A stretch of DNA of 55,381 nt from a virus: the IMG/VR virus record IMGVR_UViG_3300044644_001874, positions 1-55,381 of that record; one strand, written 5' to 3'. Position numbers and translations under genes: made by a program. The notes under the pieces were generated by a model, which saw nothing but the letters and a program-made list of their open reading frames with translations, did not search any database and was not told where the DNA came from. Below, in pieces: positions 2,809 through 25,244 of this stretch. Positions within the stretch are counted from its first letter, which is position 1. Each line of letters starts with the position of its first letter.

Positions 2809-4707
2809 TTATGTTAGTGTTCCACCTCTATAGTACTGTGGTAAATTTCCAGTTAATGGCCTAAATTCAGTTCCAGTAATTGATGAATACATTTTATAAA
2901 CCCCTGGAGGTATCGTTGTACCACTATAATTAATAACTAACCCAAGATAAGTCGCAGGTAGGGTTAACGTAGTTGTTGCAGCGGCGGTAGGACCATAATT
3001 TATTGTTGAATATGTTTGACCATTCGTTGCCGCAGTGGATACAAACCAGGTAACGAATGCATTGGTTCCTGAGAAAGATCCTGTAGGTAAAACCGCTGTT
3101 TGGAATTTATATGCCTGTATAGCTTGTCCTTGAAGGTCTGTTCCAACTGACGTTGAAGTAATACCTGTAATCACAATTGCCGGATTATAAACCCCCCATC
3201 CTGTATAACTAAGATAAGCATTCATTTGAGAATCAAATGTTGATTGTACAGTGCTTGGTGTTGAACTGCCCGCAACATTAAATCCTTTGAAAGTACTTCC
3301 TTGAGCGGTCATCCAAGCATTTAAGTTATTTCTTGGTGCCGCAGCTCCTTGGTCAATAAATGCATAAGCAAATAATGGTTGATTAGTAGGTGTAGGTGAA
3401 GGGGTATTAGTTGGTGTTGTTGTATTAGTTGGTGTCTGTGTTTGTGTTACCGTTGGAGTATTTGTTGGCGTCTCAGTAGGAGTTGAAGTTACAGTCGCAG
3501 TTTGAGTAGGAGTTGCCGTCTCAGTAGGAGTTGCAGTAGCCGTTGGTGTAGGAGTTTCAGTAGATGTTGCAGTTACGGTTGGTGTAGGAGTTTCAGTCGC
3601 CGTAGCAGTTACTGTTGCAGTATTAGTTGGAGTAGGTGTTGATGTTGCAGTTTCAGTAGGTGTTGGAGTTAAAGTCGCAGTCGCCGTTGCAGTAACACTT
3701 GGTGTAGGTGTATTTGTTGGAGTTTCGGTTGGTGTATTTGTAGGTGTTTCAGTTGGTGTCGATGTAGGAGTTTCAGTATTAGTAGGAGTATTGGTTGGAG
3801 TTTCGGTTGGTGTATTTGTAGGTGTCTCCGTATTGGTTGGAGTAGGCGTGCTTGTTTCTGTCGCCGTCAAACTTGGTGTTGGCGTATTAGTTGGAGTTGG
3901 TGTTTCAGTTGGAGTTTCGGTATTTGTCGGAGTTTGAGTACTAGTATTTGTAGGCGTGTTAGTTGGAGTTTCGGTTGGTGTCGATGTAGGAGTTTCAGTA
4001 TTTGTAGGTGTATTAGTTGGAGTTTCGGTTGGTGTATTTGTAGGTGTCTCCGTATTTGTAGGCGTGTTAGTTGGAGTTTCAGTTGGTGTAGATGTTGGAG
4101 TTTCAGTATTTGTTGGAGTTTGAGTTGTAGTGTTTGTAGGTGTATTAGTTGGTGTTTCTGATGGAGTATTTGTCGGTGTCGAAGTCTGAGTAGCAGTATT
4201 AGTAGGCGTATTTGTTGGTGTCTCAGTTGGAGTTTGAGTAGCAGTGTTTGTTGGCGTATTGGTTGGTGTAGGCGTATTTGTTGGTGTCTCAGTTGGAGTT
4301 GTAGTCGGAGTTGGAGTACTTGTCGCAGTATTAGTTGGAGTTGGTGAAGACGTAGCCGATGGTGTTCCCGTTGGTGTTTCACTAGGTGTCTGTGTCGGCG
4401 TTTCAGTTGGAGTAGGCGATGTTCCAACTGTTGCAGTTGGAGATGGTGTTAATGAAGGTGTTGGTGTTACTGTTGGTGTTGGCGTTACACACGCCAAAGA
4501 AACGACAATACCATTGAACATTTCATTTCTCGTAGCAGCAGAATAATAGATTACATCATCAACAAAAATGTTGAATGGTCCCAAAGCGTTTGAATTAGAT
4601 GCCAATCTAACTATATATGAAGTACAACCAGTTACTGTTAGTTGTTGTTCAATTTCCGTAGAGCACCCGGGTGCGTTGTTCGTGACTAAAATAGAATATA
4701 TGGACAT
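2809..4707 (-). CDS. Thr/Pro-repeat virion protein (probable tail fibre or decoration)
   Basis: 632 residues with three parts. Residues 1-72 form a small Cys-containing domain. Residues 73 to about 440 are a low-complexity stalk of TPT, TET, TNT and TAT units (for example [13 protein letters not shown]), almost only T, P, E, N, S and A. Residues about 440-632 form a globular domain rich in aromatic and small residues, ending in RGGTLT. The long Thr/Pro stalk is expected to be extended and is mucin-like, so it could be O-glycosylated; that is inference. It sits between the collagen-like fibre and the SprB-repeat protein, so an outer tail role is likely. Start ATG 4707 follows a TATTTAT motif by 16 nt. 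I do not recognise a named family for the C-terminal domain. Confidence 0.8.
3390..4490 (-). repeat. Thr-Pro codon repeat array
   Basis: Degenerate tandem DNA encoding TPT-type hexa- and dodecapeptides. On the plus strand it appears as recurring GTTGGAGTTTCGGTTGGTGT-type blocks, with near-exact copies around 3720-3790, 3960-4090 and 4200-4290. The units stay in register with the reading frame. Open frames on other strands and frames inside it are by-products of the repeat. Confidence 0.85.
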
Positions 4708-4814: not shown

Positions 4815-5150
4815 CTAATCCGTAGTGTAAATTGAAAAATTACAATTAGACTCTTGGATGTCAATGTTAACAATACAAGATGCTAATTCAATTGTAATTT
4901 CGAAATCACATCCAAAAGTACATTGTAATATTTTGAATACTTCACAATTGTTACTGTCAACCATTTTCAACATGATTTCAGGAGCCGTTGAAAAAATCGA
5001 TGGTATTGTGGTATTATATTCTACCACAGGAGGAACTGGCCCCGAAGATATAGTACCTAATAGTGTTTGATTGTTTCCATATACATCTGATATGTAAACA
5101 CTTATAGGGTATGTACCTCCCGATATTTCTGTAATTCTTACCTGATTCAT
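4815..5150 (-). CDS. Small conserved-looking virion-cluster protein, 111 aa
   Basis: I chose the start at 5150 (MNQVRITEISGG) because its ATG overlaps the TGA of the upstream SprB-repeat gene as ATGA, the usual sign of translational coupling; an ATG three codons earlier exists but is less attractive. The protein is short, beta-rich by composition, and contains several Cys (for example CEVFKILQC and FGCDFE). The opening GGTYPISVYISD resembles one strand pair of the SprB-type repeats encoded just upstream, so it may be a single stand-alone domain of that type. No known function recognised. Its place in the tail-fibre cluster suggests a virion or fibre-assembly component. Confidence 0.75.
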   Translation of the reverse strand: MNQVRITEISGGTYPISVYISDVYGNNQTLLGTISSGPVPPVVEYNTTIPSIFSTAPEIMLKMVDSNNCEVFKILQCTFGCDFEITIELASCIVNIDIQESNCNFSIYTTD

Positions 5151-7282
5151 GATAAACAAATTATATCGTAGTTTATAATCAAGTCGATGACAATTTCTTG
5201 ACCCTCGAGGGAAGTATTATTTCTACTTGTTTCGATTGTTATTTGATTATTTAGTTGGTCGATAATCACGTTACCAACACCTGGAATTCCTAATAACAAA
5301 GTTCGAATAGTATCATACCACTGATTATCTGTTGGAACCTGAACTAATGATGTCGATGTAAAGAAATTTTGGCTAGCAATTATACCTGAAGGATTTACGG
5401 AAACTTTGGCAGTAAATACCGCATTTATTAAGTCACAATTTGTATTCTCCGATGTCAAATCAAAAAATCCTTCATTTAACATTTGTAATAAACCAAACTT
5501 GGTCGGTGATTCTATGTTAAATACCTCAGCCCCCATCACATAAGTTTGATATGATGTTGAGTTTGTACTACAAGTTATTGTGGTATTTCTTGTTAATGAA
5601 CATCCATTACTGTCTACTACAGTCAAAAAATAAGTGCCACCAGTTAATCCACTCACTTGTATTTGTTGCGGTTCATTTGGCACATTGTCTGACCAATTAA
5701 AACTGAATGGTGGTTCACCTGAGGTTATGAACGCGGTAATTTTACCACTAGATCCACTGCCACAAGAAGTACTATATAAAGTATAGTTTAATGGTTGACT
5801 ACTTGGTACTAAAATGTTTGTAGTTTGAACACATCCATCCGCGTCAGTTACAGTAACAACATGAGTACCTGAAGTTAAATTATTGAATGTGACCGCAGTT
5901 AAATTTGTATCTATTACATTTTGAATTCCGTCAACAGAATAATCTAATGGTAAAGTTCCTCCACTTGTTGTGAAAATTGTAACCGACCCATTATTTTGAT
6001 TACAACTCGTGCCCACTACTTGAGTTGAAATAGTGTATTTATTTTGAGCGACTAAATTCACTTCTTGTAAATAAGAACATCCACTATTGTCGGTAACACC
6101 TACGGTATATGTACCCCCACTTAGATTTCCAAATATTTGAGTACTCTGGGAATTACTTATATTCAACTGATTACCCGTTGGGCTAATCAAAGTATATGTA
6201 TATGGTATTGTTCCTCCAACCACATTTATAGTAATCGAACCGTTATTACTTGAACAAGTCGAATTTTGTCCTTGAACTGAAACACTTGTTATTCCTCCAG
6301 GTGTTTCAAGAGTTGTTCCCGCAAACATTTGACACAAACCCGCGTCTGTCACTTGAAAGTTATATTGTCCTGCGGATAATCCTGAAATTGAAAAAGTTCT
6401 TGAATAAGATACCAATACATTACCAGTAGATGCCGAATAATAGAATGGAGCAGTACCACCTGTAATGGTTAAGTTAATTACCCCATTGGACTGAAGACAT
6501 GTCGGAGCGGTAGAAGTGAATACTCCAAACCCAATCGGATTCACATTGGTAATTGTTGCCGATTTGGTCAATGAACAACCATAAGCGTCAGTGACATCAA
6601 CAGAATAATTACCCGAAGTTAATCCTGTAATCGTACTACCAGTTTGTCCATTACTCCACAAATAACTATAAGGAGATAGACCTGTTTGTCCTGTCACAAA
6701 AATTTTACCTATTGGAGTTCCACCACAACTTGAGTTTGGTACAACATACAATCCATAATCTAAACTTTCAGATTCTTGGACTATAAATGTCGGAGTAAAT
6801 GCCGTACATCCTCCCAAATCAGTTACACCTAAATAATATGTTCCAGCGCTTAATCCACCAAAAACAACCGCATCTGTATTAGTTATTGCAGAGGTTAGAT
6901 AATTGTCATTAATATCAAACAAAGAAAAACTGGTTGATGAATATAAAGATGTTGACGAACCTGTAACAGATCCATTATTGACTCCACAAGTTGTATTTTG
7001 AACCGCAGTTACTGATCCACATACTCCACTAGAAATTGGGATATTAACTAAAAACTCGCTGTTTACAGGTAAAGTACTATCGTTTACTCTAATTTGATAA
7101 ACATTACTTGCCAACCCTACCAAAGATGCAGGTTGTGCCACAATAGTTTGAGATGGATAAGACGGAGTAATAAACTCTATTGTATACGGTGGCGTTCCCG
7201 CACTAACAAATAGATTGAATGCCCCCGAATTATTATTAGAGCAATCACCTGTTACCGTTATATTATAATTTAATACCGCCAT
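5147..7282 (-). CDS. SprB-repeat tail protein (adhesin-like)
   Basis: 711 residues. Residues about 1-575 contain six or seven tandem domains of roughly 75-85 aa. Each begins with Cys and NNGS or a similar turn, continues through a GG(T/E)xPxxY/F turn, and ends in a G(T/N)Y..xVTDxxGC signature (seen as GVTDLGGC, DVTDAYGC, GVTDNSGC, TVTDADGC, TVVDSNGC). This is the pattern of the SprB repeat, known from surface adhesins of gliding Bacteroidota. Residues about 590-711 form a C-terminal domain resembling the end of the neighbouring 994-aa protein. Start 7282 overlaps that gene's stop as TAATG. Likely role: an Ig-like stalk or receptor-binding component of the tail. Family resemblance is fairly clear by eye; virion location is inferred from context. 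Confidence 0.8.
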   Translation of the reverse strand: MAVLNYNITVTGDCSNNNSGAFNLFVSAGTPPYTIEFITPSYPSQTIVAQPASLVGLASNVYQIRVNDSTLPVNSEFLVNIPISSGVCGSVTAVQNTTCGVNNGSVTGSSTSLYSSTSFSLFDINDNYLTSAITNTDAVVFGGLSAGTYYLGVTDLGGCTAFTPTFIVQESESLDYGLYVVPNSSCGGTPIGKIFVTGQTGLSPYSYLWSNGQTGSTITGLTSGNYSVDVTDAYGCSLTKSATITNVNPIGFGVFTSTAPTCLQSNGVINLTITGGTAPFYYSASTGNVLVSYSRTFSISGLSAGQYNFQVTDAGLCQMFAGTTLETPGGITSVSVQGQNSTCSSNNGSITINVVGGTIPYTYTLISPTGNQLNISNSQSTQIFGNLSGGTYTVGVTDNSGCSYLQEVNLVAQNKYTISTQVVGTSCNQNNGSVTIFTTSGGTLPLDYSVDGIQNVIDTNLTAVTFNNLTSGTHVVTVTDADGCVQTTNILVPSSQPLNYTLYSTSCGSGSSGKITAFITSGEPPFSFNWSDNVPNEPQQIQVSGLTGGTYFLTVVDSNGCSLTRNTTITCSTNSTSYQTYVMGAEVFNIESPTKFGLLQMLNEGFFDLTSENTNCDLINAVFTAKVSVNPSGIIASQNFFTSTSLVQVPTDNQWYDTIRTLLLGIPGVGNVIIDQLNNQITIETSRNNTSLEGQEIVIDLIINYDIICLS

Positions 7283-10266
7283 TAACCGTTACAATTTATA
7301 CTTATATTTATTCCCGAGTTTAATGAAAGTGTTTCACCAATATTTCTTTCAGTACAAGTAAGACTTGTAATTGTTAATATGTTACCGTTTAAGAAAAATG
7401 TGAACCCATAATCATATAGTTGTGGAAGATATTGTATCAATGCATTTCTCCACATTGTATTAGTTGGGACATCAGTCAAACCATATCCAACATAAAACAA
7501 CTCTTTAATTATAACATCCCCACCAATTCTCAAATCAACATACCAAGTACTTTGAACTGAGTTTTGTATACAATCATTCAATGTTAACCCACTTTGGGCT
7601 AACATATTGTTAACTCTATTGGATAATATACTACTAAAATTACTAACATCAACATCTCCGTTTAACCAAGGAAATATATTAAAATCGGTGTATTCTGTAG
7701 TACAGGTATAATCAAATATACTTGAAATAATGAAACATGGATCGACAGGTACTGGTATAAATCGACATCCTCTTTGTCTTCTATAAACAAACTTCTGTCT
7801 TTGGAATATTGAATTCTCCATCCTAACTCCTGTATTCCATATTGTTGTTGCCGGAATCATTTGTTCCACTAACTTCATCCAATATGGGCCAATACCATTG
7901 ACGTAGTCAATTAATTTTTGATAGGTGTATTTGTTATTGGGTAATCCAACCGTGCTTTCCGATTCAATATATTTCCAAAAGATTGATTGTAAGATGGGAT
8001 ATCCACCTGTTTTACCATCTGTAATATATTGACGGTTTCTTACGTTAATCATATTCTCCCAAAAAGTTTGAGAAAATTCAAAAAACGTTTTCTTTTTTGG
8101 CTGTGGATTTATAAAAGTAGAATCAACTCCTCCAGGTACTGGATAACCAACTGTTAATCCTGATTCAGGTATCGGATAGTCATATCTTCTTGATTCTTCC
8201 CAAACATCATAAACTAAACCTTGTGCTGGATTCAAGAAAAGGTCTACGTTTTTAACATTCAATACTAACTTTTCATTATCAACAAAATAATAGGCATTAT
8301 AATCCGCACTATTTGAAATTCTAATTCTGTCGTCTTCTTCCAACCATGATTTATTATTATCAACCACTTTCTTAAGTTTGAACCCTTCAGTCATATATGG
8401 AAAATCTCTGAATCTATTAAGATATGGTTGTCCATAAGTGAAAGGAGTTAATTGTGATTGTATGTTAAAATTTTGACCAGTGAATACCTGACCTGTTACA
8501 ACTACCTCATCAGGACTTCTATGCGAAGGTGTTGATTCATACCATCCAGATCCTATCTGAAAGAAATAACTTTCAGTATTTTCAGGAGCTTTAGGAAACC
8601 CTTCTAAATCAACAGGGTAATCCTCCAATCTGGTGTTTACATCTTGATATGTTGCAGTTGAAGTGAACGCACTAAATGTTTGACCCTTTATCTTATAAGT
8701 TGAACCTGGAATAAAACTTGGAGTATTTTCAACATAAGTACCACCTGAAATAGCCGCCCATTGAATACCAAATTGATCCATGTTTATTTTTTGGTCAGCC
8801 AAATAGATATGTTCATTGAATTCAATTAAAGAATCGGGAGCTCCGATTAATCTTAACATAAATTCAACTGAACGTCTAGTTCCCTTAGATTTGAATAAGT
8901 AAGATGCGTTAAGAATAAGATTACGGTAGAATGCATAATTCAATTCCGTAGGTGTTAGTGCCCTAGCATAACCAGGATAGGTTGGTGTTGATGTATTTCC
9001 GAATACAGAACTTAAAAAGTCCTCATTAGTAATTGGCGAGAAATTAGAACTCCATCCAAGTGTTTGTGCCAAATTCACTAAAAGTTGTGATGGAATATCA
9101 TTAGAAGGATTGTAACTAACAGAGTTCATGTATGCCAAGGCATCTATGAATTGTTTGATTTGGTCAAAACTTCTACCATAAATTTGAAATATCTTTTCAA
9201 CTTTTTGTCCTAATGTATCAAATTCCTTCAAAGAATCTGTAACCAAAAATCTTGAGATTAAATTTGTTTTGAAGGAATCCAAATTAATCGCAATTTCCTC
9301 AAGTTGGCTCAAGTAATTCTCAAACAAAAATGACCTAATATCCAAATTCCACGGCCCATCTTTAGGCCATGTTACTTGTTGAAAATTAGTATAAAATTGT
9401 CCGGCTTCATTTTGTTGTGGCACTTGAAATACCGCAGTATACTCCGGTCTTATAAGTCGGTTTAATAAAAATTTTTGTACCTCATCAAAATCTTCAGCAA
9501 AAATTCTATCAACAACAAAATCATTTGGCCTTATTTGAAATTCTTCGTTAGATGTAGTTGCTGTCACCCCAAATGGTGAACCTGAAACAATGAATTCGAT
9601 GAATCCTGTTGTCAGTGTTTGTGATGGAGTAAATGAAACAATATTAAAAATATTGTCATTGATTGACACACAATAATCCAAATAAGTATTATACAAATTT
9701 CTATACGGAGAAACGGTTATTTCTCTTACAGATAAATTTGTTGCAGCACTTAAAGAATAATCAATATCGAATGGATTATTAATTCTACTTACATTAATAC
9801 GGAATGATGTTTCATTCAATACGGAATCATAAGATATATTAGTAGCAGTCGAACCTGTTATAAAATTATCATTGTTGAATACTATATCTAATGAAGCCGG
9901 AAATCTATGTATAATTTCAGTAATAGATACTTGAAATCTTTTACTTAAAGATCCATACATAGAAAAGTTTAGAACTTGAGACACATCATAGTTCGGATAT
10001 ACTCTGAACTGTGTCGCCATAATTCTTCTACTCTCATTAACGTCACCAATATTCAATCCCTCCAAACTTATAGGTTCAGAGAAAGCCCCAACATTAAAGG
10101 TTCTATTAACTTTTTCAGTAACCGAAGTTGTAAACTCAAAGTTACCTTGCGTGAGTCCTCCCCCTTCAACTGTTTGTAATCCTACAATATTGTCAGAGAA
10201 GGTCGCAGCACCACTACCGGGTCGTGGCGGATAAAAAAATTTAGTAGTACCTTGAGTCGTAGCCAT
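7282..10266 (-). CDS. Large tail/baseplate-periphery protein, 994 aa
   Basis: Residues about 450-475 carry a phrase (FKSKGTRRSVEFMLRLIGAP) of a type I associate with phage tail proteins that join fibres to the baseplate (gpI-like); that link is from memory and not secure. The middle is rich in Tyr, Asn and Pro. Residues about 845-994 form a C-terminal domain with VPTNTMW and NGNILTITS phrases, repeated in diverged form at the end of the SprB-repeat protein. Start (MATTQGTTKF) and stop each overlap neighbours by one base (TAATG), so it is translated in a coupled chain with the 302-aa and 711-aa genes. It may be the baseplate-proximal adaptor for the fibres encoded to its left. Unlikely to be an enzyme: no catalytic motif seen. 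Confidence 0.75.
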   Translation of the reverse strand: MATTQGTTKFFYPPRPGSGAATFSDNIVGLQTVEGGGLTQGNFEFTTSVTEKVNRTFNVGAFSEPISLEGLNIGDVNESRRIMATQFRVYPNYDVSQVLNFSMYGSLSKRFQVSITEIIHRFPASLDIVFNNDNFITGSTATNISYDSVLNETSFRINVSRINNPFDIDYSLSAATNLSVREITVSPYRNLYNTYLDYCVSINDNIFNIVSFTPSQTLTTGFIEFIVSGSPFGVTATTSNEEFQIRPNDFVVDRIFAEDFDEVQKFLLNRLIRPEYTAVFQVPQQNEAGQFYTNFQQVTWPKDGPWNLDIRSFLFENYLSQLEEIAINLDSFKTNLISRFLVTDSLKEFDTLGQKVEKIFQIYGRSFDQIKQFIDALAYMNSVSYNPSNDIPSQLLVNLAQTLGWSSNFSPITNEDFLSSVFGNTSTPTYPGYARALTPTELNYAFYRNLILNASYLFKSKGTRRSVEFMLRLIGAPDSLIEFNEHIYLADQKINMDQFGIQWAAISGGTYVENTPSFIPGSTYKIKGQTFSAFTSTATYQDVNTRLEDYPVDLEGFPKAPENTESYFFQIGSGWYESTPSHRSPDEVVVTGQVFTGQNFNIQSQLTPFTYGQPYLNRFRDFPYMTEGFKLKKVVDNNKSWLEEDDRIRISNSADYNAYYFVDNEKLVLNVKNVDLFLNPAQGLVYDVWEESRRYDYPIPESGLTVGYPVPGGVDSTFINPQPKKKTFFEFSQTFWENMINVRNRQYITDGKTGGYPILQSIFWKYIESESTVGLPNNKYTYQKLIDYVNGIGPYWMKLVEQMIPATTIWNTGVRMENSIFQRQKFVYRRQRGCRFIPVPVDPCFIISSIFDYTCTTEYTDFNIFPWLNGDVDVSNFSSILSNRVNNMLAQSGLTLNDCIQNSVQSTWYVDLRIGGDVIIKELFYVGYGLTDVPTNTMWRNALIQYLPQLYDYGFTFFLNGNILTITSLTCTERNIGETLSLNSGINISINCNG

Positions 10267-11174
10267 TAACTAGTTATATTTGTAAAGTTTTTACTGAAAT
10301 CAATATTATTACCTCTGCTTTGTCTAACCTCATAAAGAAGAGCATTAAATTGGTCTCTAATTTCGTATAGGTTGTACTGTCTGTATATGTTATCATTAGC
10401 ATCGTAGATAGTGTAGATACCATCATCGATAGATTTGGTTTGATTACCATATAGAGCAATAGCAAGAGAAGAAATATCGTACTCAACCATTTCAATCTCT
10501 ACAGATACAGGATTGAAAAAGGTATTAGTGATTATAATATTTTGGTCAGGCTGTCCAATGTACGGAGTTGCATTTGGTTTGTTTGTTGGTGATGATGACG
10601 GTGATAGTGTTAGAAATATTAGATTTGAATCTCCATCAACATATCTATATCTTATCGCCTTTTGTGTCGTGTTAACCTCATTTGTTACAACAGGCTCACA
10701 AAAGAAACTTGATGTAACAACTCTGAAGAAATTAGGTATTTTAGAACCATCAGGATTAAGATATTCAACTCTGAATCCGACTAATCCTTGAGGTACAAAT
10801 TTGTTTTGATATTGTGTAGGAACATTAGAAATGTCAATAATAATACCTTTGACGTTAGGTAACGCACTTAAAACACCACAATCACTAATTACCGTTCTGA
10901 TTTCCGCAGGTCTTATATATAATGTGTAAATTCCCAACGCATTGAATTGATTTGCGGGTAATGTTAAATTGTAAAGTCCCCCCAATACTTCAACACCAGC
11001 GTTTCCTCCTGTTTCAGAGTTTGCGAAGTAGGGTCTCAATATAGTTTGAGCGTCCAACTTTGTTAAAACAAATTGGTCTGTAACGTCCCTTGTGGGCGTA
11101 AAATTAAGAATTATCTCTACATCAGCGGGACTAACGTCTGATGGTCTTATTGTTCCATAGCTCCCAATTGCCAT
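10266..11174 (-). CDS. Hypothetical tail-cluster protein, 302 aa
   Basis: Starts MAIGSYGTIRPSDVSPADVE; ATG 11174 lies three bases after the stop of the HNH endonuclease gene. The sequence is Asn/Tyr/Ile rich, with no signal peptide, membrane segment or enzyme motif. The C-terminal third (YTIYDANDNIYRQYNLYEIR) is polar. Its stop overlaps the start of the 994-aa gene as TAATG. By position it belongs to the structural tail cluster; I do not recognise the family. Confidence 0.75.
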   Translation of the reverse strand: MAIGSYGTIRPSDVSPADVEIILNFTPTRDVTDQFVLTKLDAQTILRPYFANSETGGNAGVEVLGGLYNLTLPANQFNALGIYTLYIRPAEIRTVISDCGVLSALPNVKGIIIDISNVPTQYQNKFVPQGLVGFRVEYLNPDGSKIPNFFRVVTSSFFCEPVVTNEVNTTQKAIRYRYVDGDSNLIFLTLSPSSSPTNKPNATPYIGQPDQNIIITNTFFNPVSVEIEMVEYDISSLAIALYGNQTKSIDDGIYTIYDANDNIYRQYNLYEIRDQFNALLYEVRQSRGNNIDFSKNFTNITS

Positions 11175-11176
11175 TA

Positions 11177-11821
11177 TTATGTCGCTTGTTTAATTAATTT
11201 ATTTCCTTTTCTTAAGTTATCTTCAGCCCACAAAGGTTGAAGATTGGTATAATGACACAATTTATAAATTTCATCTTCTGTTTTTGCAGAGGATAAAGGT
11301 ATAATGTGGTCAATATGCCATTCCCCATAATTACCCCAAGACATCCCTTGAAAAAATTGTTTTTCGAGGTGTTCTTTCAATTCTTTCGGAGTAATGCCGA
11401 CCAAATCGAAAGTTTTATTTGACTTAATTATACTCTTATTTTTCAAAAATTTGTTCAATCTCTTTCTAACATTAAAAGCCAATTTGAATAATGGTTCGTT
11501 TTTTCTTCTATCCACCATATATTGGTTATATTTTTCAGTGTTTTTACTTCTCCACTTCAAAGTGTATTGAACTGCCTTTTCTCTATTTTCCTCATTCCAT
11601 TTTTTTAATGTGGAATCACGTTTATCTTTGTTTTTTATAGACCATTTTTTTTGATATTCAGGATTATCCTTATATCTTTTTTTACTATATTCACGATATT
11701 TTTCTGAATTATTCAAATATTTAATTCTATCGTATTCCTTTGTACACAGTTTACAGGATCCTCTACCTTTATTAAAATCTTCGAATGGTTTTTCAATATT
11801 ACATTTACTACAAACTTTCAT
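11177..11821 (-). CDS. Free-standing HNH homing endonuclease
   Basis: 214 residues. An N-terminal zinc finger (C4, C7, C23, C26 in MKVCSKCNIEKPFEDF...CKLC) is followed by a highly basic region with repeated Tyr/Trp/Lys units (about 28-115), then a C-terminal HNH nuclease motif: HIDHIIPL (H169, D171, H172), TNLQPLW (N193) and NLRKGNK (N202). All expected HNH residues are present, so it looks active. It lies between two otherwise tightly packed tail genes and has its own TATTTAT motif only 5 nt before the ATG, like T4 free-standing homing endonucleases that bring their own promoter. It would cut a cognate site in related phages lacking it; the target is unknown. Lys-rich composition differs from the Thr/Asn-rich neighbours, fitting horizontal arrival. 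Confidence 0.92.
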   Translation of the reverse strand: MKVCSKCNIEKPFEDFNKGRGSCKLCTKEYDRIKYLNNSEKYREYSKKRYKDNPEYQKKWSIKNKDKRDSTLKKWNEENREKAVQYTLKWRSKNTEKYNQYMVDRRKNEPLFKLAFNVRKRLNKFLKNKSIIKSNKTFDLVGITPKELKEHLEKQFFQGMSWGNYGEWHIDHIIPLSSAKTEDEIYKLCHYTNLQPLWAEDNLRKGNKLIKQAT

Positions 11822-11826
11822 CTTCT

Positions 11827-11833
11827 ATAAATA
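11827..11833 (-). promoter_or_regulatory. TATTTAT late-promoter-like motif
   Basis: The minus strand reads AGTATTTATAGAAG and then ATG 11821, a gap of only 5 nt. If this is a promoter core, the transcript would be leaderless or nearly so. Confidence 0.4.
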
Positions 11834-11848
11834 CTTTATTTCCTTTTT

Positions 11849-12943
11849 TCAATTAGTACTTTCTTTATTAACTACGTTAAAGAATCCATATCCATAGTTA
11901 ATCATATCTCCCAAATTGTCAACCTCACCCAATCTCATAACTCTTTCATAAGCACTATTTTTTCCTCTTTCAACAAATACGTTGGTTTGTATTTGTGCTT
12001 GGTCAATTACTTTTAGAAGAACTTCTTCTTTAGTAATAGGTTGTGCCGTCAAATTATTTGAAGTTAGTCCAGATGATTGTTGGAAAAATATTGTAGTCCC
12101 ATCATTATAATCATAGTAATGAACTCCAGTAATTGTATAGGCAGTGTACACAGGATTTATATCTGATATTGCCCCCCATATTTGTCCATTACTGATTACA
12201 GGAACTCCAACTCGGAATTTTGGACTACCGTACAATGCCAGTTCATTTATTCTCGATCTGGTATTACCCGAAACTGTAAATGGAACCGTGACATAATTAT
12301 TTGATGTTTGTGCCGAAACTACATTCACAGCATCTCCTGAAAAAATATAGTTATATGATACAGGAGTATTAATCCAGTTACCAGCACTAGGTATGAAAAA
12401 AGATTCACCATTTGGGTTGTAAATAACAACATCAGTGAAAGGTACGTTGATTTTCTTAGAAACTTTTGTCACACCCCACGGATTTGTTTGTTCCAATGTT
12501 ATGGTATATTGTTTAATTGCCGTTGGGTAAGTATGACTTATTGAATTAGGGGTATAACTTGTTATTGTTTGTTTTGGACTACCGTCCCCCCAATCTACTT
12601 TATACGCAGATAGTTCCAAAAACTTTTGAAATTCATCAGAAGTATTGTAAATATTCCAAACGTATGGACTATTTGTAGTTGATGAAAATATAAAATTGGT
12701 AACTACATCTTTTTGTAGTACCGCTCCATCGAATGGACTATAGTATCCCGCATCAACCGCAGTTTGTCTTAATAATATAGGCACCGATAAATTGGTTAAC
12801 AAAGAAGTACCACTAGGCCCCGAACTAACAACTTGTGTCATAGCAGAATAAACCCCAACAGGAGTACCACTGTAATTTACAACGGATAAATCCCTGGCAA
12901 CATTCTCAGGTGAGACAATAAATCTATAAGTATCCTGTGACAT
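11849..12943 (-). CDS. PKD-domain tail protein, 364 aa
   Basis: Residues about 110-170 show a PKD-type beta-sandwich pattern: VDWGDGSPKQ, then ISHTYPTAIKQYTITLE and a following NPWG turn. PKD folds serve as spacers or sugar- and protein-binding modules in many surface and virion proteins. The C-terminal part (VFVERGKNSAYERVMRLGEV) is more charged and possibly helical, which could be the attachment end. Its start overlaps the stop of the 276-aa gene (TAATG). No catalytic motif. A fibre or baseplate-periphery role is inferred from neighbours. Confidence 0.75.
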   Translation of the reverse strand: MSQDTYRFIVSPENVARDLSVVNYSGTPVGVYSAMTQVVSSGPSGTSLLTNLSVPILLRQTAVDAGYYSPFDGAVLQKDVVTNFIFSSTTNSPYVWNIYNTSDEFQKFLELSAYKVDWGDGSPKQTITSYTPNSISHTYPTAIKQYTITLEQTNPWGVTKVSKKINVPFTDVVIYNPNGESFFIPSAGNWINTPVSYNYIFSGDAVNVVSAQTSNNYVTVPFTVSGNTRSRINELALYGSPKFRVGVPVISNGQIWGAISDINPVYTAYTITGVHYYDYNDGTTIFFQQSSGLTSNNLTAQPITKEEVLLKVIDQAQIQTNVFVERGKNSAYERVMRLGEVDNLGDMINYGYGFFNVVNKESTN

Positions 12944-13773
12944 TATTGTGGAGGGTTTACATATTCATACCATTTTATGGGAATGTTGGTTCCCAACCTT
13001 TGTCCACTCGTATTTAACACTTGGTAAGTTTGTGTTTCATAATCAAGTTTAACCGTATAATATAAAAATTGTGTGTTATCAAAAGCATATTTATTTCCTG
13101 TCAAATAAACCTGAGGGCCATTTGTCAAGTCCAATGGATTTGTGCCTCTACCTGTCATCATTCTTGTGAATTGTCCAGTTTTAGCATTGAAAAACTTTGC
13201 AGACATATAGAATGTATTGATATTAAGAAAATTTCTTTTCTTTAACCAATAGATAAAAAACCCTTCTTTATCTCCAACATAATCCAAAATAAACTGTGGT
13301 TTTCTAATATTAACCATAGTTCTCTGCATTTGAGTTTCCATCATTAATCCTTGTTGAGTTGGCAATATTATCGTAAGATAATTTGTTTGTTGTTTCTCAT
13401 CAGGAGTATCGTAAAAATCCAACTTGAAAAATGAATTGGAAAATACGTTATCATAATAATATACTTCTTGTGGTGTAAATCCTTCACTTAAATAATTGAT
13501 TCTCCAATTACTCAGGTCATTCAGAGACCCTCCAGAATAAAAATAAAATTCATAATTGATTAATGTATCATTCGTAGTTCCTGTAGCAGGTGCGTGAGCA
13601 AATCTTGAAACCTCAAAATCTCTACCGTCACCAATGACTTCTTTAATTACTTTGGTTTCATACTCATCAATAGCCAAGTCCAATCCCAAATAATCCCACT
13701 TGAGTTCTACAGGTATGTTGATTTGTTTGTCAACACCAACATCTTGTCTAATTACAAATCTATTCACACTCAT
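12943..13773 (-). CDS. Hypothetical tail-cluster protein, 276 aa
   Basis: Starts MSVNRFVIRQDVGVDKQINI. The N-terminal phrase GVDKQINIPVELKWDYL resembles the opening of the 1617-aa protein two genes upstream (GINKSINVQLDQEFEFLEIL), suggesting a shared docking segment. The rest is Tyr/Phe/Asn rich with no recognised domain. It overlaps the upstream 565-aa gene by 14 bases and the downstream 364-aa gene by one base, so it is part of a coupled four-gene set. Confidence 0.72.
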   Translation of the reverse strand: MSVNRFVIRQDVGVDKQINIPVELKWDYLGLDLAIDEYETKVIKEVIGDGRDFEVSRFAHAPATGTTNDTLINYEFYFYSGGSLNDLSNWRINYLSEGFTPQEVYYYDNVFSNSFFKLDFYDTPDEKQQTNYLTIILPTQQGLMMETQMQRTMVNIRKPQFILDYVGDKEGFFIYWLKKRNFLNINTFYMSAKFFNAKTGQFTRMMTGRGTNPLDLTNGPQVYLTGNKYAFDNTQFLYYTVKLDYETQTYQVLNTSGQRLGTNIPIKWYEYVNPPQ

Positions 13774-15457
13774 CTATTAGTGGTTTTATTGCGAAGTCAA
13801 ATCCGTCAAGATTATCGTTATAATTTATTCCTTCAGGAATCAATCTAAAAATCGCCTGAGTATAAGGATAATGGGCTGAGTTTAAGTAAGGATAATCTAC
13901 ACCACGTCCCAAGTTGTCTATAAACCCATAGGTATAAATATCCCTCCATCGAAACTCTTGGTCGGTAGTTGAATAAAATGCCCAACTCGGAACATTGTCA
14001 ATTTCCCCAAGTTCCGCAGTTTCAATATAATCCGAAAACACTTTCAATACCATTGAGTTATGGGGTTTATAATAATAACCTGGTGAGTTCGTAGAAAAAT
14101 TGTTTGTTGTTTGGAATACCGTTTGATTGAACTTTATCTTATGGTAATATGGTGATACAACACGTTCAACTTGTTCATAGTCATTCCACTCACAGAAATC
14201 ACCGTCCATTATATCACCAGGTTTCAAATCTAAATTATAATTAAATGTTTTTGTCGCACCATTGGTGAGAGTATATGCTGAAACAGGTATGTTTGTATTT
14301 GACCTTTGATTATTCAAATCCCACCAAGGAGTTGGAGTTTTTGCCAAATTGAACCCCCACCCTTGTTTCAATCCAACACTATTGAATGGTTGATTAAAAT
14401 ATCCTGAATATCCTTTATTAACTATTGTTAAACTAATTTCATTCAATGGTCTTTTTTGATTATCCAACAAACCCGCAAAGTTCAAGTCATAGTTAGATGT
14501 TACGTCATAAGTGTTACTACTTGTCTTTTGAGATATTCTTGTAACATTGTTTGGTGTTATCGAACTATATTCAAGTTTCCTCTCTTCACCAAACACATTT
14601 TTTTCAAATCCCGCCTTAGTAATTGCAAGGTCAGTAAGGTTAGTTAAGACCTTATATTTCTTAACATAATATTTAGATCTTGTTTCTGTTAAGTTGTCGG
14701 GATTAATAACTCTTCTAAATGTTCCAATTGTCCCGTTATTAAATGTAGAACCTGTAAATCCAATATTAAATAAGTTGAACACATGTTTGTCACTTCCATA
14801 TAATCCATTACCAATAGAATAAACTTGGAATATGTTAGACCCACGATAGGTTAACGATAATTCCACATATTGTCCTATCGTCAAACCATGAGGGGCAATA
14901 CAAATAAAAGAAACCAAACCATTACCATTCTGAGTATTATTTACGATTGAGAATGGTATTCCACTTGAAGCAATCCAATTCACATCATTGTTACTCGTGG
15001 AGTAATATGTTAGTTGTCTATCACTATCATTTTCATAAGGGTAGGTCAAATAGTACATCCAGTTATATGTGTAAGCACTCTTTGCTTTGTATTGAAAATG
15101 ACTATCTCCTATATTAGGTCTATAAAAATCGAATTCATAATATTGCGGAAATCCTCTCCATATTCCACTTTGTTTTGAATTTGCTGGATCACTATAGTAT
15201 AAATTATATTGGAAAGGTAAATAAGTTGTAGTACCTGTATAGGTGTTATCATACAAGTATGTTATCTTAAATGTTGGTCTAAATATTGTACTTTCTTGTC
15301 TTTCATCGTCATAAATCTGAGCAAGATTTAACGTAGATGTCCTATCGTACTCAGTGAGTTCTTGACTTTGCTCTTGAAGAGTCAAAGATATTTCCTCGTC
15401 TAATGAAGGAGCACCCTTATATCTAAGTCCACTTGGTATTATCGTATACTTATTCAT
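13760..15457 (-). CDS. Hypothetical large tail-cluster protein, 565 aa
   Basis: Starts MNKYTIIPSGLRYKGAPSLD. Tyr, Asn and Thr are very abundant, there is no signal peptide or hydrophobic helix, and no enzyme motif was seen. The start overlaps the end of the 1617-aa gene by 8 bases and the end overlaps the next gene by 14, indicating coupled translation and probably roughly equal amounts. The composition fits a beta-rich virion protein; I do not recognise the family. Confidence 0.72.
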   Translation of the reverse strand: MNKYTIIPSGLRYKGAPSLDEEISLTLQEQSQELTEYDRTSTLNLAQIYDDERQESTIFRPTFKITYLYDNTYTGTTTYLPFQYNLYYSDPANSKQSGIWRGFPQYYEFDFYRPNIGDSHFQYKAKSAYTYNWMYYLTYPYENDSDRQLTYYSTSNNDVNWIASSGIPFSIVNNTQNGNGLVSFICIAPHGLTIGQYVELSLTYRGSNIFQVYSIGNGLYGSDKHVFNLFNIGFTGSTFNNGTIGTFRRVINPDNLTETRSKYYVKKYKVLTNLTDLAITKAGFEKNVFGEERKLEYSSITPNNVTRISQKTSSNTYDVTSNYDLNFAGLLDNQKRPLNEISLTIVNKGYSGYFNQPFNSVGLKQGWGFNLAKTPTPWWDLNNQRSNTNIPVSAYTLTNGATKTFNYNLDLKPGDIMDGDFCEWNDYEQVERVVSPYYHKIKFNQTVFQTTNNFSTNSPGYYYKPHNSMVLKVFSDYIETAELGEIDNVPSWAFYSTTDQEFRWRDIYTYGFIDNLGRGVDYPYLNSAHYPYTQAIFRLIPEGINYNDNLDGFDFAIKPLIDECE

Positions 15458-20401: not shown

Positions 20402-22240
20402 TTAAGAGAATGTTGTGGATTGGAAGTTTACTACTGAAACTTTAATATCCTTATTTGGATATCTTATTTGATAAACTTGTGAAGGCTGAGCAAAAATAGT
20501 GTCGGCAACAGGAGCAATTTGTCTCGTTTCAGGATCAGAATATTGCATAGATGTTTCAGCCGAAGAATATTGTCCACCCACATTATTGAATACCTTAATT
20601 CCTGCTACTGTAAGTACACCATTTTGGTTCTGTACAATACTTTGTATCTCAGACAAATAAACATTCTGTCCTAATTCCCTCACTTGTGGATTAAAGTAAG
20701 TCGAAATTCTGTCTACAACATCAGCAATAACTTGTCCTGAATTCTGTGCCGAAGTTAATACAACTGATACCTCAACACTAAGATCAATTACTTCAGCAGT
20801 CAAAATGGAAATATAGTCATTAATCATTCTATAATTAGAAAGATAGGTTGCAACATTTTGTCTCAAGGTGTTCGATACAATATTAGTTAATTTACCAGAG
20901 GTATCGTAAGACAACAATTGAATTAAAATTTTATTATCGTTTTCTGTAACTGAAACTTTTGCAGGTGCTCCAAATTCTGAAGGCATATTCCTGATGATAG
21001 ATTCGTAGTCTTGAACTGTCACCGCTCTCTTCTGTGCGGAAAAGTTGAATGATACATAATTTCTAATTTCTTCCAAAGATGGTAACCCTGCTCCACCAAT
21101 TGCAGCAGTAACGTTGTTACATCTCAAAGAATTAACTACCGATGAGTTTGTTAGTTCTGATGGACCATTAACAAAGAAAGATACAGTACCAATCTGAGTG
21201 ATAACATTTGTTCCCAAGTTAGTACCTAAACCACCCCCAACTCTATATTGAACAAACAGAGTTGAATTCGGAGTTAAAGCCGAACCCAAAGATAAATTGT
21301 TTGAATATCTTTGTAGGTCTATCGTTGCCCCTAATGTTGTAAATTGATTTAACGCATCTTGTGCCGTATTGGTTCCTCCACCAAAAGTTAATTTCTTAAA
21401 CCCTTCAGGAGTGTATTCACTAATGAATCTATTTTGTGTTTGAATATATCTACCAACTTTAATTCCTGGTTGGTCGGAAACTTTTGTAGGGTCTTCAATA
21501 AAAACTCTATCTTCGGCAAGGGCATCTACTTCATACCATTTGTTAGGAACTCCTAAGAATTCCGCCGCTGTAGGTATGTTTGTATATTCAGTACCACTTT
21601 TAAGTAATACACTTGTGATTCCTAATACATTTTTTTCAGGTAAGAATAATTCAAAAAATGGCTTAACATCGTTTGGAGTAATAACCCTTTTGAAAACTTT
21701 AGTAATACCATTAACAACTAATTCTCTCTTGGTAATAGTATAATTAACCAAAACATTATTGGCATTGAAGTTAGGTATTTTTAATCTGTTGGGAAACCCT
21801 TGGGCATTATATGGTGATGTAAAATCAACGTCATATATGTTTTCAAATATTATACCAGCACCTGACACTTGAGACCCTCTCGCTAAAGTTCCAAGATATC
21901 TCTCATCTTCTTTATCTCCAAAGGCAGGTACGGTAATTGAAAAATCTACTAAAGATACTGATGGTCTTTGTCCAGGAAGTTTTAATCCATAAGTTCTCGC
22001 AATATTATATATTGAAGATCTTTGTTGCGCATATTGAAGTACTGTTTCTTGAATACTTCTATCTATGTGATAATGTAAGTTATCAGCAACCGCAGCATTC
22101 AAGTCCAAAAATACCGAGAATACAGATGCGTCATTAAAATCCTGAATCAATTCAGGATAGTATGTTCTTACATAGTTTAATAACTCAGTTCTTATCCCCT
22201 GATAATCTCTAGTTGTATATGAAATTTTACGATTTGCCAT
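20402..22240 (-). CDS. Baseplate wedge protein, gp6 / gpJ family
   Basis: 612 residues, close to T4 gp6 (660). The opening (ISYTTRDYQGIRTELLNYVR) and the following LNAAVADNLHYHIDRSIQE are typical of gp6/gpJ-type wedge proteins that form the baseplate inner ring. The middle has the usual K-L-x-FGGG and QYRVGGG turns, and YEAII-like YESIIRNMP appears near residue 420. The C-terminal third is the domain that dimerises between wedges. The gene starts 5 nt after the gp25-like stop, so the two wedge genes are co-transcribed as in many myoviruses. Confidence 0.88.
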   Translation of the reverse strand: MANRKISYTTRDYQGIRTELLNYVRTYYPELIQDFNDASVFSVFLDLNAAVADNLHYHIDRSIQETVLQYAQQRSSIYNIARTYGLKLPGQRPSVSLVDFSITVPAFGDKEDERYLGTLARGSQVSGAGIIFENIYDVDFTSPYNAQGFPNRLKIPNFNANNVLVNYTITKRELVVNGITKVFKRVITPNDVKPFFELFLPEKNVLGITSVLLKSGTEYTNIPTAAEFLGVPNKWYEVDALAEDRVFIEDPTKVSDQPGIKVGRYIQTQNRFISEYTPEGFKKLTFGGGTNTAQDALNQFTTLGATIDLQRYSNNLSLGSALTPNSTLFVQYRVGGGLGTNLGTNVITQIGTVSFFVNGPSELTNSSVVNSLRCNNVTAAIGGAGLPSLEEIRNYVSFNFSAQKRAVTVQDYESIIRNMPSEFGAPAKVSVTENDNKILIQLLSYDTSGKLTNIVSNTLRQNVATYLSNYRMINDYISILTAEVIDLSVEVSVVLTSAQNSGQVIADVVDRISTYFNPQVRELGQNVYLSEIQSIVQNQNGVLTVAGIKVFNNVGGQYSSAETSMQYSDPETRQIAPVADTIFAQPSQVYQIRYPNKDIKVSVVNFQSTTFS

Positions 22241-22245
22241 CTATA

Positions 22246-22716
22246 TTAAATATTAATAATAACAAAATCACTTTGAGCAAAAGTCGATCTGTTGTTCGAG
22301 TAATCTATTCTAATTTTAGCGGTATATTCCGAAGTTCCTTTTCCAGGTAATCTATAAATTGGAGACTCGCTTGTTCCAAGTGTATTTTCACCTAACATGG
22401 TATCAACTTCTTCCATTGGGTCAGCAGGTGTGATTGATATTTGATTCAATAACAGGTTTGGCATATAAACTTGAACAGCATCTCTTATATCTGATTGTAT
22501 TGCATCAAAAGTTAAACCATCAAATGGCTCAAATAAAAATTCATACAGTCTTGTTCCAAAATCAGGTAAAAAATACCTACTACCTTTTCTAGTTAAAAGA
22601 AGGTGAATTAAGTCAGATTTAATTTGCTGAGATTCTAATTGGGTAAGTTCTAAAAAATCACCCCGTCTCGAATCTCTGAAAGGAAAGTTTATTCCATATG
22701 TTACTCCGTTCGCCAT
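22246..22716 (-). CDS. Baseplate wedge protein, gp25 family
   Basis: I chose ATG 22716 (MANGVTYGINFPFRDSRRGD), giving 156 aa; a longer frame from a TTG adds a 15-aa hydrophobic stretch unlike the family. T4 gp25 has 132 aa. The core signature GSRYFLPDFGTRLYEFLFEP matches the GxRxxxPxFGTxLxxxLFEP pattern of gp25/TssE proteins, which clamp the sheath to the baseplate. The C-terminus (TAKIRIDYSNNRSTFAQSDF) is a beta strand region. Two TATTTAT motifs lie upstream, after the NrdA terminator, so this gene starts a new late transcript that continues into the gp6-like gene. Confidence 0.88.
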   Translation of the reverse strand: MANGVTYGINFPFRDSRRGDFLELTQLESQQIKSDLIHLLLTRKGSRYFLPDFGTRLYEFLFEPFDGLTFDAIQSDIRDAVQVYMPNLLLNQISITPADPMEEVDTMLGENTLGTSESPIYRLPGKGTSEYTAKIRIDYSNNRSTFAQSDFVIINI

Positions 22717-22720
22717 AAAG

Positions 22721-22727
22721 ATAAATA
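22721..22727 (-). promoter_or_regulatory. TATTTAT late-promoter-like motif (proximal)
   Basis: The minus strand reads CTTATATTTATCTTTATG, 4 nt from ATG 22716. It is the nearer of two copies in this gap; the spacing resembles that at the HNH gene. Confidence 0.35.
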
Positions 22728-22747
22728 TAAGACCCTTGTTTTTCCTT

Positions 22748-22754
22748 ATAAATA
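22748..22754 (-). promoter_or_regulatory. TATTTAT late-promoter-like motif (distal)
   Basis: The minus strand reads GGCTATTTATAAGGAAAAAC, 31 nt before ATG 22716 and about 10 nt after the U-tract of the NrdA terminator. A promoter directly after a terminator makes sense as the start of the wedge-gene transcript. Confidence 0.55.
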
Positions 22755-22763
22755 GCCACAAAT

Positions 22764-22799: not shown

Positions 22800-25226
22800 T
22801 TAGGAAGAACAACCGAAACATTCAATTTCAATTCCTTCTGGTTTTGGTGGTAAATTCATACTACTATAATCAACTTTAGGAACTTCAACATTTGGTTTTG
22901 GTTTTTGTGCCTTTGACATATCCAACGCTAAGTGTTTAGCCCCTGTTGAAATTGCCTTAGTCCTTACATAATAACACAATGTTTTCAAACCTTTTTCCCA
23001 CGAGTGAAAGTGAGATGATGTAATTTTAGACAACGTAGGGTTCGACATATATATGTTCATAGACTGAGACTGATCAATGAATGGTGCTCTATCTGCCGCC
23101 ATATTAATCAAATCTCTCTGAGAAATCTCCCAAATTGTTTTATACTTAGGAATTAAATGCTCAATTCTCTTAACCTTTTTGTTATAGTTTTTGTCTTCAG
23201 GGTCAAGGTATTGATTGAAGTTAATGTTTTGAATTGAACCTTCATTCATAATAATTTCATTCTTCAAATCTTCGGACCAAATACCAATTTTTTCAAAGTC
23301 ATTAATCAAGTACTTGTTCACAATCATAATCTCCCCACCAACAACTCTTCTATTAAACAATGCGGAATGTGCTGGTTCGGTCATCTCAAATGAACCAGTA
23401 ATTTTTGCTGAAGACGCGACTGGCATCTGAGCAGTGAATAAGGAGTTACAAACACCAAATTCTTGTACGTCTTTTTTCAACGTTTCCCAATCCAAGAATA
23501 ATTCAGAGTCATTCAACCCCCACATATCAAATTGGAAAATCCCTTTCGACATTGGAGAACCTTTGAAGAATTCGTAAGGGTGTCTAATTCCTTTCTTACA
23601 CAAATCATTACTTTCAGTGATTGCCGCATAATAAATTGCCTCAAAAATATTCTTATTCAAAGTTTTAGCTTCATCTGAAGTGAATACATAGTCCAATAAA
23701 CAGAATACGTCAGCTAAACCTTGTACCCCAATACCAATCGCTCTTTGTTCTAAACCTCCTTTAAGACCTTTTTCAGTTGAATAATTATTCTTGTCGATAA
23801 CATTGTTCAACGCTCTAACCGCCTTTCTAACTTCTTCAATCAATAGTTTGTAATCAAACTTACCATCAACAATAAAGTTTTTAAGTACGATTGATGATAG
23901 TGTACAAATCGCAGTTGTATTCTCATCAGTATACTGATAGATTTCATTACATAGGTTAGATTGTTTAATCACACCAATGTTTTGATGATTTGTTTTTTTG
24001 TTCGCACTATCTTTAGCACATAAGTAAGGTACACCAGTTTCAACTTGAGATTCAATGACTTTACTCCAAATCTCTTGTGCTTTTACTTTTCGACCGATTC
24101 CTGCTTTTACCGCCAACTGATAGTTTCTTTCATATTCATCACCGAAACATTCCTGTAATGGTTTAATACCCGCTTTGATAATATCATTCGGACAGAACAA
24201 ATACCAATCTTCATTGTTTTTAACTGCTCTCATGAAGTTATCAGGAATCCAAAGTGCGGTAAATAAATCTCTCGCTCTTAATTCTTCAGCACCTGTATTC
24301 TTTTTGATATCCAATAAATCAAAAATATCTTTGTGCCATGGTTCCAAGTATATCGCAGCACTACCAGGTCTTCTTCCTTGTTGGTTAAAGAATCTCAATG
24401 ATTCGTTTACAATCTTAAGATATTTTAACAATCCACCAGCAAAACCACCAGATGATTTGATTCTACTTTCTTTACTTCTGATGTTTGACATAGACAATCC
24501 AATACCCGCAGCATCTGAAGAATAGGTTGAGATGTCATTCAAGGTTTTTAGTAATCCTTCTCTTGAATCTGAATTATTATAATGTAACACACAAGACGCT
24601 AACTGAGGAACTTTGGTTCCTGAGTTAATCATAATTGGTGTTGCCTTAGAAATTCTCTGACTTGATAATGAATGATAATATTCTACCGCTTCTTCGAATG
24701 AATTAGTTACCCATAGAGCAACTCTCATATACATATGTTGTGGTCTTTCGATTACTTTACCCTGAGGAGTTTTCAACAAGTACATTTCTTGTAGTGATCT
24801 CCATCCAAAGTAATCAAAATTGTAATCATTCTCATGATTGATTACCTCATCAATCTTAGACGGACCATACTTTTCAATCACCTCCATTAGGTCATCATGA
24901 ACTACACCATCAACATGAAGGGTGTGCATTACATTTGAAAAACTTGGATCGGTATCTTTATGATACGATGAAATCGCAACTGAAGCCGCAAGTCTAGAAT
25001 AATCATAATGACTACCAGTATATGCCGCAGCGATTTCATAAACAAGTTTATCTAACTCTTTTGTGGTTATATTACCTTCAGTTGGTACTGATGTAATAAC
25101 TTTAATGAATATTTCATCAGAGTTAACAGTCAAACCCTTAGCAGCTCGTTTAATTCTATTATAAATTTTTTGTGGATTGAAGGCAACATCCTCCCCTCCT
25201 CTTTTTTTAATTTTTAATGACATCAT
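22800..25226 (-). CDS. nrdA: Class I ribonucleotide reductase, large (alpha) subunit
   Basis: 808 residues. An N-terminal ATP-cone (LKIKKRGGEDVAFNPQKIYN) binds the activity effector. Catalytic residues are visible: C212 in ASCVL, N424/C426/E428 in SNLCNE, C441 in AICTLSS, a Tyr pair in TLCYYVRT, and the C-terminal redox pair CFGC (C803, C806). It reduces ribonucleoside diphosphates to deoxynucleotides for phage DNA synthesis, with radical supplied by NrdB. Starts ATG ATG (25226 or 25223), 18 nt after nrdB. The sequence looks complete and functional, with no intein or intron. It is the last gene of the replication operon and is followed by a strong terminator. Confidence 0.96.
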   Translation of the reverse strand: MMSLKIKKRGGEDVAFNPQKIYNRIKRAAKGLTVNSDEIFIKVITSVPTEGNITTKELDKLVYEIAAAYTGSHYDYSRLAASVAISSYHKDTDPSFSNVMHTLHVDGVVHDDLMEVIEKYGPSKIDEVINHENDYNFDYFGWRSLQEMYLLKTPQGKVIERPQHMYMRVALWVTNSFEEAVEYYHSLSSQRISKATPIMINSGTKVPQLASCVLHYNNSDSREGLLKTLNDISTYSSDAAGIGLSMSNIRSKESRIKSSGGFAGGLLKYLKIVNESLRFFNQQGRRPGSAAIYLEPWHKDIFDLLDIKKNTGAEELRARDLFTALWIPDNFMRAVKNNEDWYLFCPNDIIKAGIKPLQECFGDEYERNYQLAVKAGIGRKVKAQEIWSKVIESQVETGVPYLCAKDSANKKTNHQNIGVIKQSNLCNEIYQYTDENTTAICTLSSIVLKNFIVDGKFDYKLLIEEVRKAVRALNNVIDKNNYSTEKGLKGGLEQRAIGIGVQGLADVFCLLDYVFTSDEAKTLNKNIFEAIYYAAITESNDLCKKGIRHPYEFFKGSPMSKGIFQFDMWGLNDSELFLDWETLKKDVQEFGVCNSLFTAQMPVASSAKITGSFEMTEPAHSALFNRRVVGGEIMIVNKYLINDFEKIGIWSEDLKNEIIMNEGSIQNINFNQYLDPEDKNYNKKVKRIEHLIPKYKTIWEISQRDLINMAADRAPFIDQSQSMNIYMSNPTLSKITSSHFHSWEKGLKTLCYYVRTKAISTGAKHLALDMSKAQKPKPNVEVPKVDYSSMNLPPKPEGIEIECFGCSS

Positions 25227-25244
25227 AGATATAAAAGTATTAAA

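Follow-up and report, generated by a model that had tools for sequence, protein, structure and literature searches.

SprB repeats (Pfam PF13573) are common to surface proteins of Bacteroidota, of which SprB of F. johnsoniae is one example. They are also enriched beside TANFOR polymorphic toxin genes of bacteria (PMC7073777), so they are better described as surface domains of Bacteroidota in general, with gliding adhesins as one case, than by the narrow label 'gliding adhesin'. One proposal for Flavobacterium, citing SprB and RemA work, makes the gliding machinery a phage receptor (PMC7345892). On the phage side, crAss-like phages carry BACON repeats (PMC6949934), and the one precedent found for phage genes with T9SS sorting domains is Cryophage, whose named domains are PA14 and enzymes (PMC7468147). 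A study of a phage SprB-repeat tail protein was not found in the open literature searched; the one paper there to mention both SprB repeats and phages deals with bacterial toxins.

The window analysed here comprises positions 1 to 55,381 of IMG/VR virus record IMGVR_UViG_3300044644_001874, a 55-kb stretch in which tail sheath, gp25, gp6, RecA-like and nrd genes are present. It encodes a SprB-repeat protein, hereafter P0001. A protein of the same kind has already been deposited as A0A6J5LD72, 'SprB repeat [uncultured Caudovirales phage]', with annotation by domain alone. This 714-aa protein is the best fold match to P0001 among viral proteins and matches it over its full length with 34% identity (E=2e-64, BFVD); the domain annotation is therefore not new.

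Domain architecture of P0001

The original prediction described the 711-residue product as a tail protein made mostly of six or seven SprB-type domains with the signature GTYxVxVTDxxGC. The ORF is real and lies on the minus strand (Table 1); an ORF check found the plus strand of the same interval full of stops. The SprB identity was borne out by HMM search, as PF13573 matched P0001 in six significant stretches with E=9.2e-21 and 73.6 bits, compared with the curated cut-off of 28 bits. The same profile was silent in all 14 control genomes scanned, so the match is not a chance one. Self-alignment resolved seven domains of 76-87 residues each, six of them with a GC (or LC) signature, in agreement with the predicted number. 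The exact motif occurs once, in repeat 5 (GTYTVGVTDNSGC), five further repeats carry near variants, and the N-terminal repeat 1 lacks the GC end. Repeat 3 is the nearest of the seven to host repeats, with a best host score of 175.

The expected Ig-like fold (Ig/PKD-like) was also predicted. An AlphaFold model built with 31 homologues (mean pLDDT 81) is a succession of beta-sandwich domains that ends in an alpha/beta domain at the C-terminus; the pTM of 0.36 means that the positions of the domains relative to each other are not predicted. The best solved relatives of the model are GhpA fragments; at the sequence level, no PDB entry was matched by P0001 or its profile (E<=0.01). By eye, the start MAVLNYNITV (MAVLNYNITVTGDCS) has no hydrophobic leader and no signal peptide was seen. 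A search for T9SS sorting domains found no CHU_C in P0001, and the Por_Secre_tail matches were sub-threshold and inside repeats 6-7. The best single PHROG match, to PHROG 3945 'Hoc-like head decoration' (E=1.3e-9), covered a generic Ig-like stretch about 100 residues long.

Table 1. Features of the SprB locus in the window, and second-class SprB proteins in other viral loci (L numbers)
Feature	Position	Strand	Remarks
P0001, SprB-repeat protein	5147-7282	minus	whole gene, 711 aa, ATG start to stop
Repeat 1, residues 1-87	7022-7282	minus	divergent SprB-like; alignment, predicted strands, own clade
Repeat 2, residues 88-173	6764-7021	minus	GTYYLGVTDLGGC; sequence, alignment, model
Repeat 3, residues 174-250	6533-6763	minus	SprB match 6641-6745
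Repeat 4, residues 251-330	6293-6532	minus	SprB match 6419-6520
Repeat 5, residues 331-413	6044-6292	minus	SprB match 6176-6268, 34 bits; exact GTYxVxVTDxxGC
Repeat 6, residues 414-497	5792-6043	minus	sequence, alignment, model
Repeat 7, residues 498-573	5564-5791	minus	SprB match 5684-5767
C-terminal module, residues 574-711	5150-5563	minus	phage-specific; order E-H-E-E-H-E-E-E
Collagen-like (SGT)n fibre protein	3-2780	minus	cut by window end
632-aa protein	2809-4707	minus	two small domains joined by long P/T-rich linker, fibre-like; phrog_15511
114-aa small protein p114	4815-5159	minus	adjoins SprB gene; TTG start listed, ATG at 5150 overlapping SprB stop
994-aa tail-cluster protein p994	7282-10266	minus	constant neighbour in relatives
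302-aa protein p302	10266-11174	minus	best-conserved gene of block
Baseplate wedge gp6/J-like	20402-22240	minus	Pfam Baseplate_J E=1e-7; PHROG 6 E=4e-23; tail-cluster anchor
Baseplate wedge gp25-like	22246-22761	minus	Pfam GPW_gp25 E=2e-10
Leader + SprB (often PKD) + CHU_C/Por_Secre_tail proteins	L283:2021-4291, L313:2366-4573, L300:3235-7293 and 7311-10805, L357:8518-10962, L361:3-2255, L347:1983-6401, L415:871-3390, L417:1846-5475, L418:758-2983, L421:864-5888

Gene neighbourhood and the C-terminal module

The gene order p1617-p565-p276-p364-p302-p994-SprB-p114 is conserved across relatives, with gp25 and gp6 upstream of the block and a collagen/S74 fibre downstream. The region after the block differs among relatives, encoding P/T-rich proteins, collagen-like (SGT)n fibres or a DUF285 (BspA-type) protein. 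One relative (L008:10525-15642) has there the equivalent of the (SGT)n protein of the window, a very long fibre capped by a Peptidase_S74 chaperone (Pfam matches to Collagen and Peptidase_S74, E=5e-16). In four relatives (L042, at 8001-11399, L043, L036 and L037), the C-terminus of the SprB protein is itself fused to a P/T-rich linker, which in L042 leads to a long folded tip, propeller-like by eye. The conserved tail gene order, the variable fibre-type neighbours and the P/T fusions together point to P0001 as a protein of the baseplate/fibre part of the tail. The tail position given in the original prediction is supported by gene order.

Several other features of these loci were observed. DUF285 (BspA-type) is a bacterial surface-protein repeat; in L051, the gene after the SprB protein (10622-14965) encodes such repeats (E=2e-141) in place of the collagen-like fibre. 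The antisense frame of the (SGT)n tract at 3-2780 in the window yields an artefactual plus-strand 'VPLVPEVP' ORF. An HNH endonuclease gene (11177-11821, minus) is inserted between p364 and p302; it is missing from most relatives shown, and a different HNH gene occupies the same site in L099/L100. The genes for the large and small subunits of ribonucleotide reductase (22800-26192, minus) directly adjoin gp25/gp6.

The C-terminal module of P0001 had no match in the 198 Bacteroidota genomes sampled. It matched the C-terminal ~140 aa of p994 weakly, in a consistent register and with HMM E-values down to 2.5e-4; a single hhalign comparison of the two modules gave E=7e-4 and a probability of 26%. 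Modelled separately, the two C-termini have the identical order strand-helix-strand-strand-helix-strand-strand-strand. The AlphaFold model of p994 has a pLDDT of 42 overall and is confident just at about 855-994, the C-terminal module, where the pLDDT is ~84. A fold search with this model returned one clear homologue, A0A6J5L8T1, and a PHROG scan of 31 p994 homologues gave no solid match. The weak sequence match and the shared strand/helix order suggest that the modules of P0001 and p994 are probably related and would form a common assembly or docking module.

Evolution of the repeats

The number of repeats is constant, exactly seven in all 64 distinct homologues counted. Comparison of the window protein with seven relatives gave repeat i as the best match of repeat i 49 times out of 49. 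A tree that included 66 host repeats placed every one of the seven phage positions in a clade of its own (support 80-100), and these clades were interspersed among host repeats at several places, which implies 6-8 changes. One origin of the phage repeats was not rejected (AU p=0.129, from few alignment columns). The suggestion that the domains were taken from a host is plausible.

Scores between sister repeats of P0001 averaged 115, close to the bottom of the range for host arrays (median 180, 5th percentile 105); the sisters are about as divergent as repeats in the more diverged of these arrays. All repeats but R2, six in total, scored higher against some host repeat than against any sister, the host pool being much larger. 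The dN/dS of the SprB protein was 0.069 overall and 0.04-0.09 in every domain, compared with 0.035-0.05 for the upstream neighbours p994, p302, p364 and p565; these ratios are rough because dS is near saturation, and the SprB protein appears somewhat faster. The fixed count, the positional orthology and a low dN/dS that shows purifying selection are together what an old structural part of constant form would display.

Distribution and host

Relatives of P0001 were found at 50 IMG/VR loci with the protein query and at no fewer than 462 loci with the alignment query, on contigs of up to 326 kb. Conserved peptide patterns retrieved no whole-protein relative from bacterial genomes and thus no sign of a prophage copy. 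P0001 matched a single entry among 50,697 phage records, the 642-kb LR756502, whose SprB protein belongs to the second class described below.

The repeats themselves lead to Bacteroidota. A DNA pattern of the motif, run against genomes from 84,980 species, gave at least 119 loci, and among the matches listed 118 of 119 were in Bacteroidota and one in Chlorobiota. Matches to P0001 were present in 58 of 198 genomes drawn from Bacteroidota, at ~30-46% identity over the repeats, and the top ones fell mostly at residues 139-571. Among the 50,697 phage records, relatives of the window RecA-like protein occurred solely in Flavobacterium phages. The Bacteroidota-specific motif, the genome matches, the GhpA fold relatives and the RecA-like relatives make a Bacteroidota host likely for the window phage. 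The link drawn earlier between SprB repeats and Bacteroidota surface proteins is upheld; their restriction to gliding adhesins is not.

A second class of phage SprB proteins

In motif-bearing viral contigs, the P0001 C-terminal module was present in 75 of 136 repeat-bearing ORFs, and 20 more adjoined its usual neighbours. Many of the other 41 have an N-terminal hydrophobic leader and a C-terminal T9SS sorting domain, CHU_C or Por_Secre_tail (Table 1). CHU_C was found in 9 of the 21 records checked; LR756502 and contigs of 149-291 kb are among the nine, and leaders could be made out by eye. The N-terminus QYCPxLGPDQxLPCGVNSTTLTADLSQCG is common to many of these proteins. Contigs G207 and G216 carry a terminase gene. 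On the jumbo phage contig G216 (L319; 290,887 bp), one SprB protein bears the tail-type module, and another, 840 aa long, has a leader and CHU_C. On these metagenomic contigs, the second-class proteins are apparently phage-encoded substrates of the host T9SS bound for the host surface.

SprB-repeat proteins of 829 aa (L416:892-3378, G214) and 958 aa (L419:1239-4112, G219) have no visible leader; their neighbours are fibre-like genes, some of them P/T-rich, and both phages encode a tail-type SprB protein as well.

Discussion

We somewhat favour the reading that P0001 is a fixed-length structural arm or spacer on the tail of a Bacteroidota phage. The constant layout suits such an arm better than it suits a receptor binder under fast evolution or an array taken lately from a host. 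P0001 would then be part of the virion structure of a T4-like phage with a contractile tail, presumably cytoplasmic in origin as no signal peptide was seen. Judged from domain size, the seven Ig/PKD-like SprB domains would give an arm of ~25-30 nm if stretched, projecting from the baseplate/fibre region. The C-terminal module would fit the protein into the tail, probably against the related C-terminus of p994, and the arm may serve as a brace or spacer, a role proposed for Ig-like domains of other phages. Most of the host specificity would lie in variable proteins whose genes adjoin that of the arm or that are fused to it, whether P/T-rich, collagen-like, propeller-like or of DUF285 type. The repeats were probably gained from a host lineage before the phage family diversified. 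Some results sit less easily with the arm, among them the weak sequence match of the two C-terminal modules and the Hoc-like PHROG match. The C-terminus bears fused P/T tips in some relatives, which suggests that it is not just buried, and either end of the protein may face the tail. The higher dN/dS of the SprB protein relative to its neighbours also fits surface exposure and binding.

The latter result also agrees with a receptor-binding role, in which the repeats would imitate a bacterial adhesin surface and bind host surface polysaccharide or SprB/RemA-type adhesins; mimicry of host adhesins and binding of surface polysaccharide had been considered in the original prediction. Homology to adhesin repeats, the tail-fibre neighbourhood of the gene and the proposal of the gliding machinery as a Flavobacterium phage receptor agree with this role, which we consider possible, though the weaker candidate. 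Seven fixed repeats with low dN/dS and no fast-evolving domain count against it, variable adhesive modules are encoded directly downstream, and a ligand of SprB repeats was not found in the literature searched; no evidence of mimicry or of receptor binding emerged from the analysis. The scatter of phage repeats among host repeats, and the closeness of six of them to some host repeat, would suit the recent capture of a ready-made adhesin array with exchange still ongoing. That account is improbable, given the low identity to host repeats, the divergence of the sister repeats and a single origin that was not rejected. Positional orthology and the constant repeat number led us to set aside both recent host capture and domain shuffling.

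The PHROG match raises the possibility of a head decoration protein, since Hoc is itself a chain of Ig-like domains. We think this quite unlikely, as the match spans a generic stretch, the module is probably common to P0001 and p994, the SprB gene lies between p994 and the fibre genes in a conserved tail block, and the linkers of the four fusions resemble those of fibre genes. Head decoration was set aside on gene order. Secretion of P0001 onto the surface of the infected host as a phage-encoded adhesin has a precedent in the leader peptides and CHU_C sorting domains of the second class in jumbo phages. For P0001 it is very hard to credit, as the protein starts without a leader, ends in a phage-specific module and has just sub-threshold sorting-domain matches within its repeats.

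Next to the structural tail arm, we raise the speculative idea that large Bacteroidota phages may use SprB proteins both on the tail and, through the host T9SS, on the infected cell surface, where the two could interact or compete. If so, the two types might act in superinfection exclusion, receptor masking or the control of host adhesion and gliding; should the sorted proteins reach the host surface, phages would alter the machinery thought to hold their own receptors. The P0001 family, with more than 460 loci and a constant seven-domain layout, indicates wide phage use of Bacteroidota surface-protein domains, and its SprB-repeat protein could serve as a sequence marker pointing many uncultured large phages to Bacteroidota hosts.

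Among known systems, the Flavobacterium phages immuto (MW353175-MW353177) resemble the window in having gp25-gp6 followed by fibre genes, with gp6 26% and the RecA-like protein 43% identical. Their fibre block differs, with no SprB repeat and no detectable homologue of p994, p302 or p364. The best solved fold match to P0001 (E=1e-18) is to fragments of GhpA from Aureispira sp. CCB-QB (PDB 9flp, 9fly, 9flw), likewise a chain of Ig-like domains, which is located on a surface appendage of a Bacteroidota, the grappling hook; unlike P0001, GhpA is a giant cellular protein. With the PF13573 surface proteins, P0001 shares the profile, repeats of ~75-85 aa, the TC...GC cysteines and the beta-sandwich fold. 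It differs from them in having just seven, strongly diverged repeats of constant count, in lacking a signal peptide or T9SS sorting domain, and in its phage-specific C-terminal module. The virion Ig-like domains of Hoc and fibres and the BACON repeats of crAss-like phages are, as in P0001, Ig-like or host-associated repeats in phage proteins. P0001 is set apart from these by the SprB class of its repeats, its constant seven domains and a C-terminal module that is probably common to p994.
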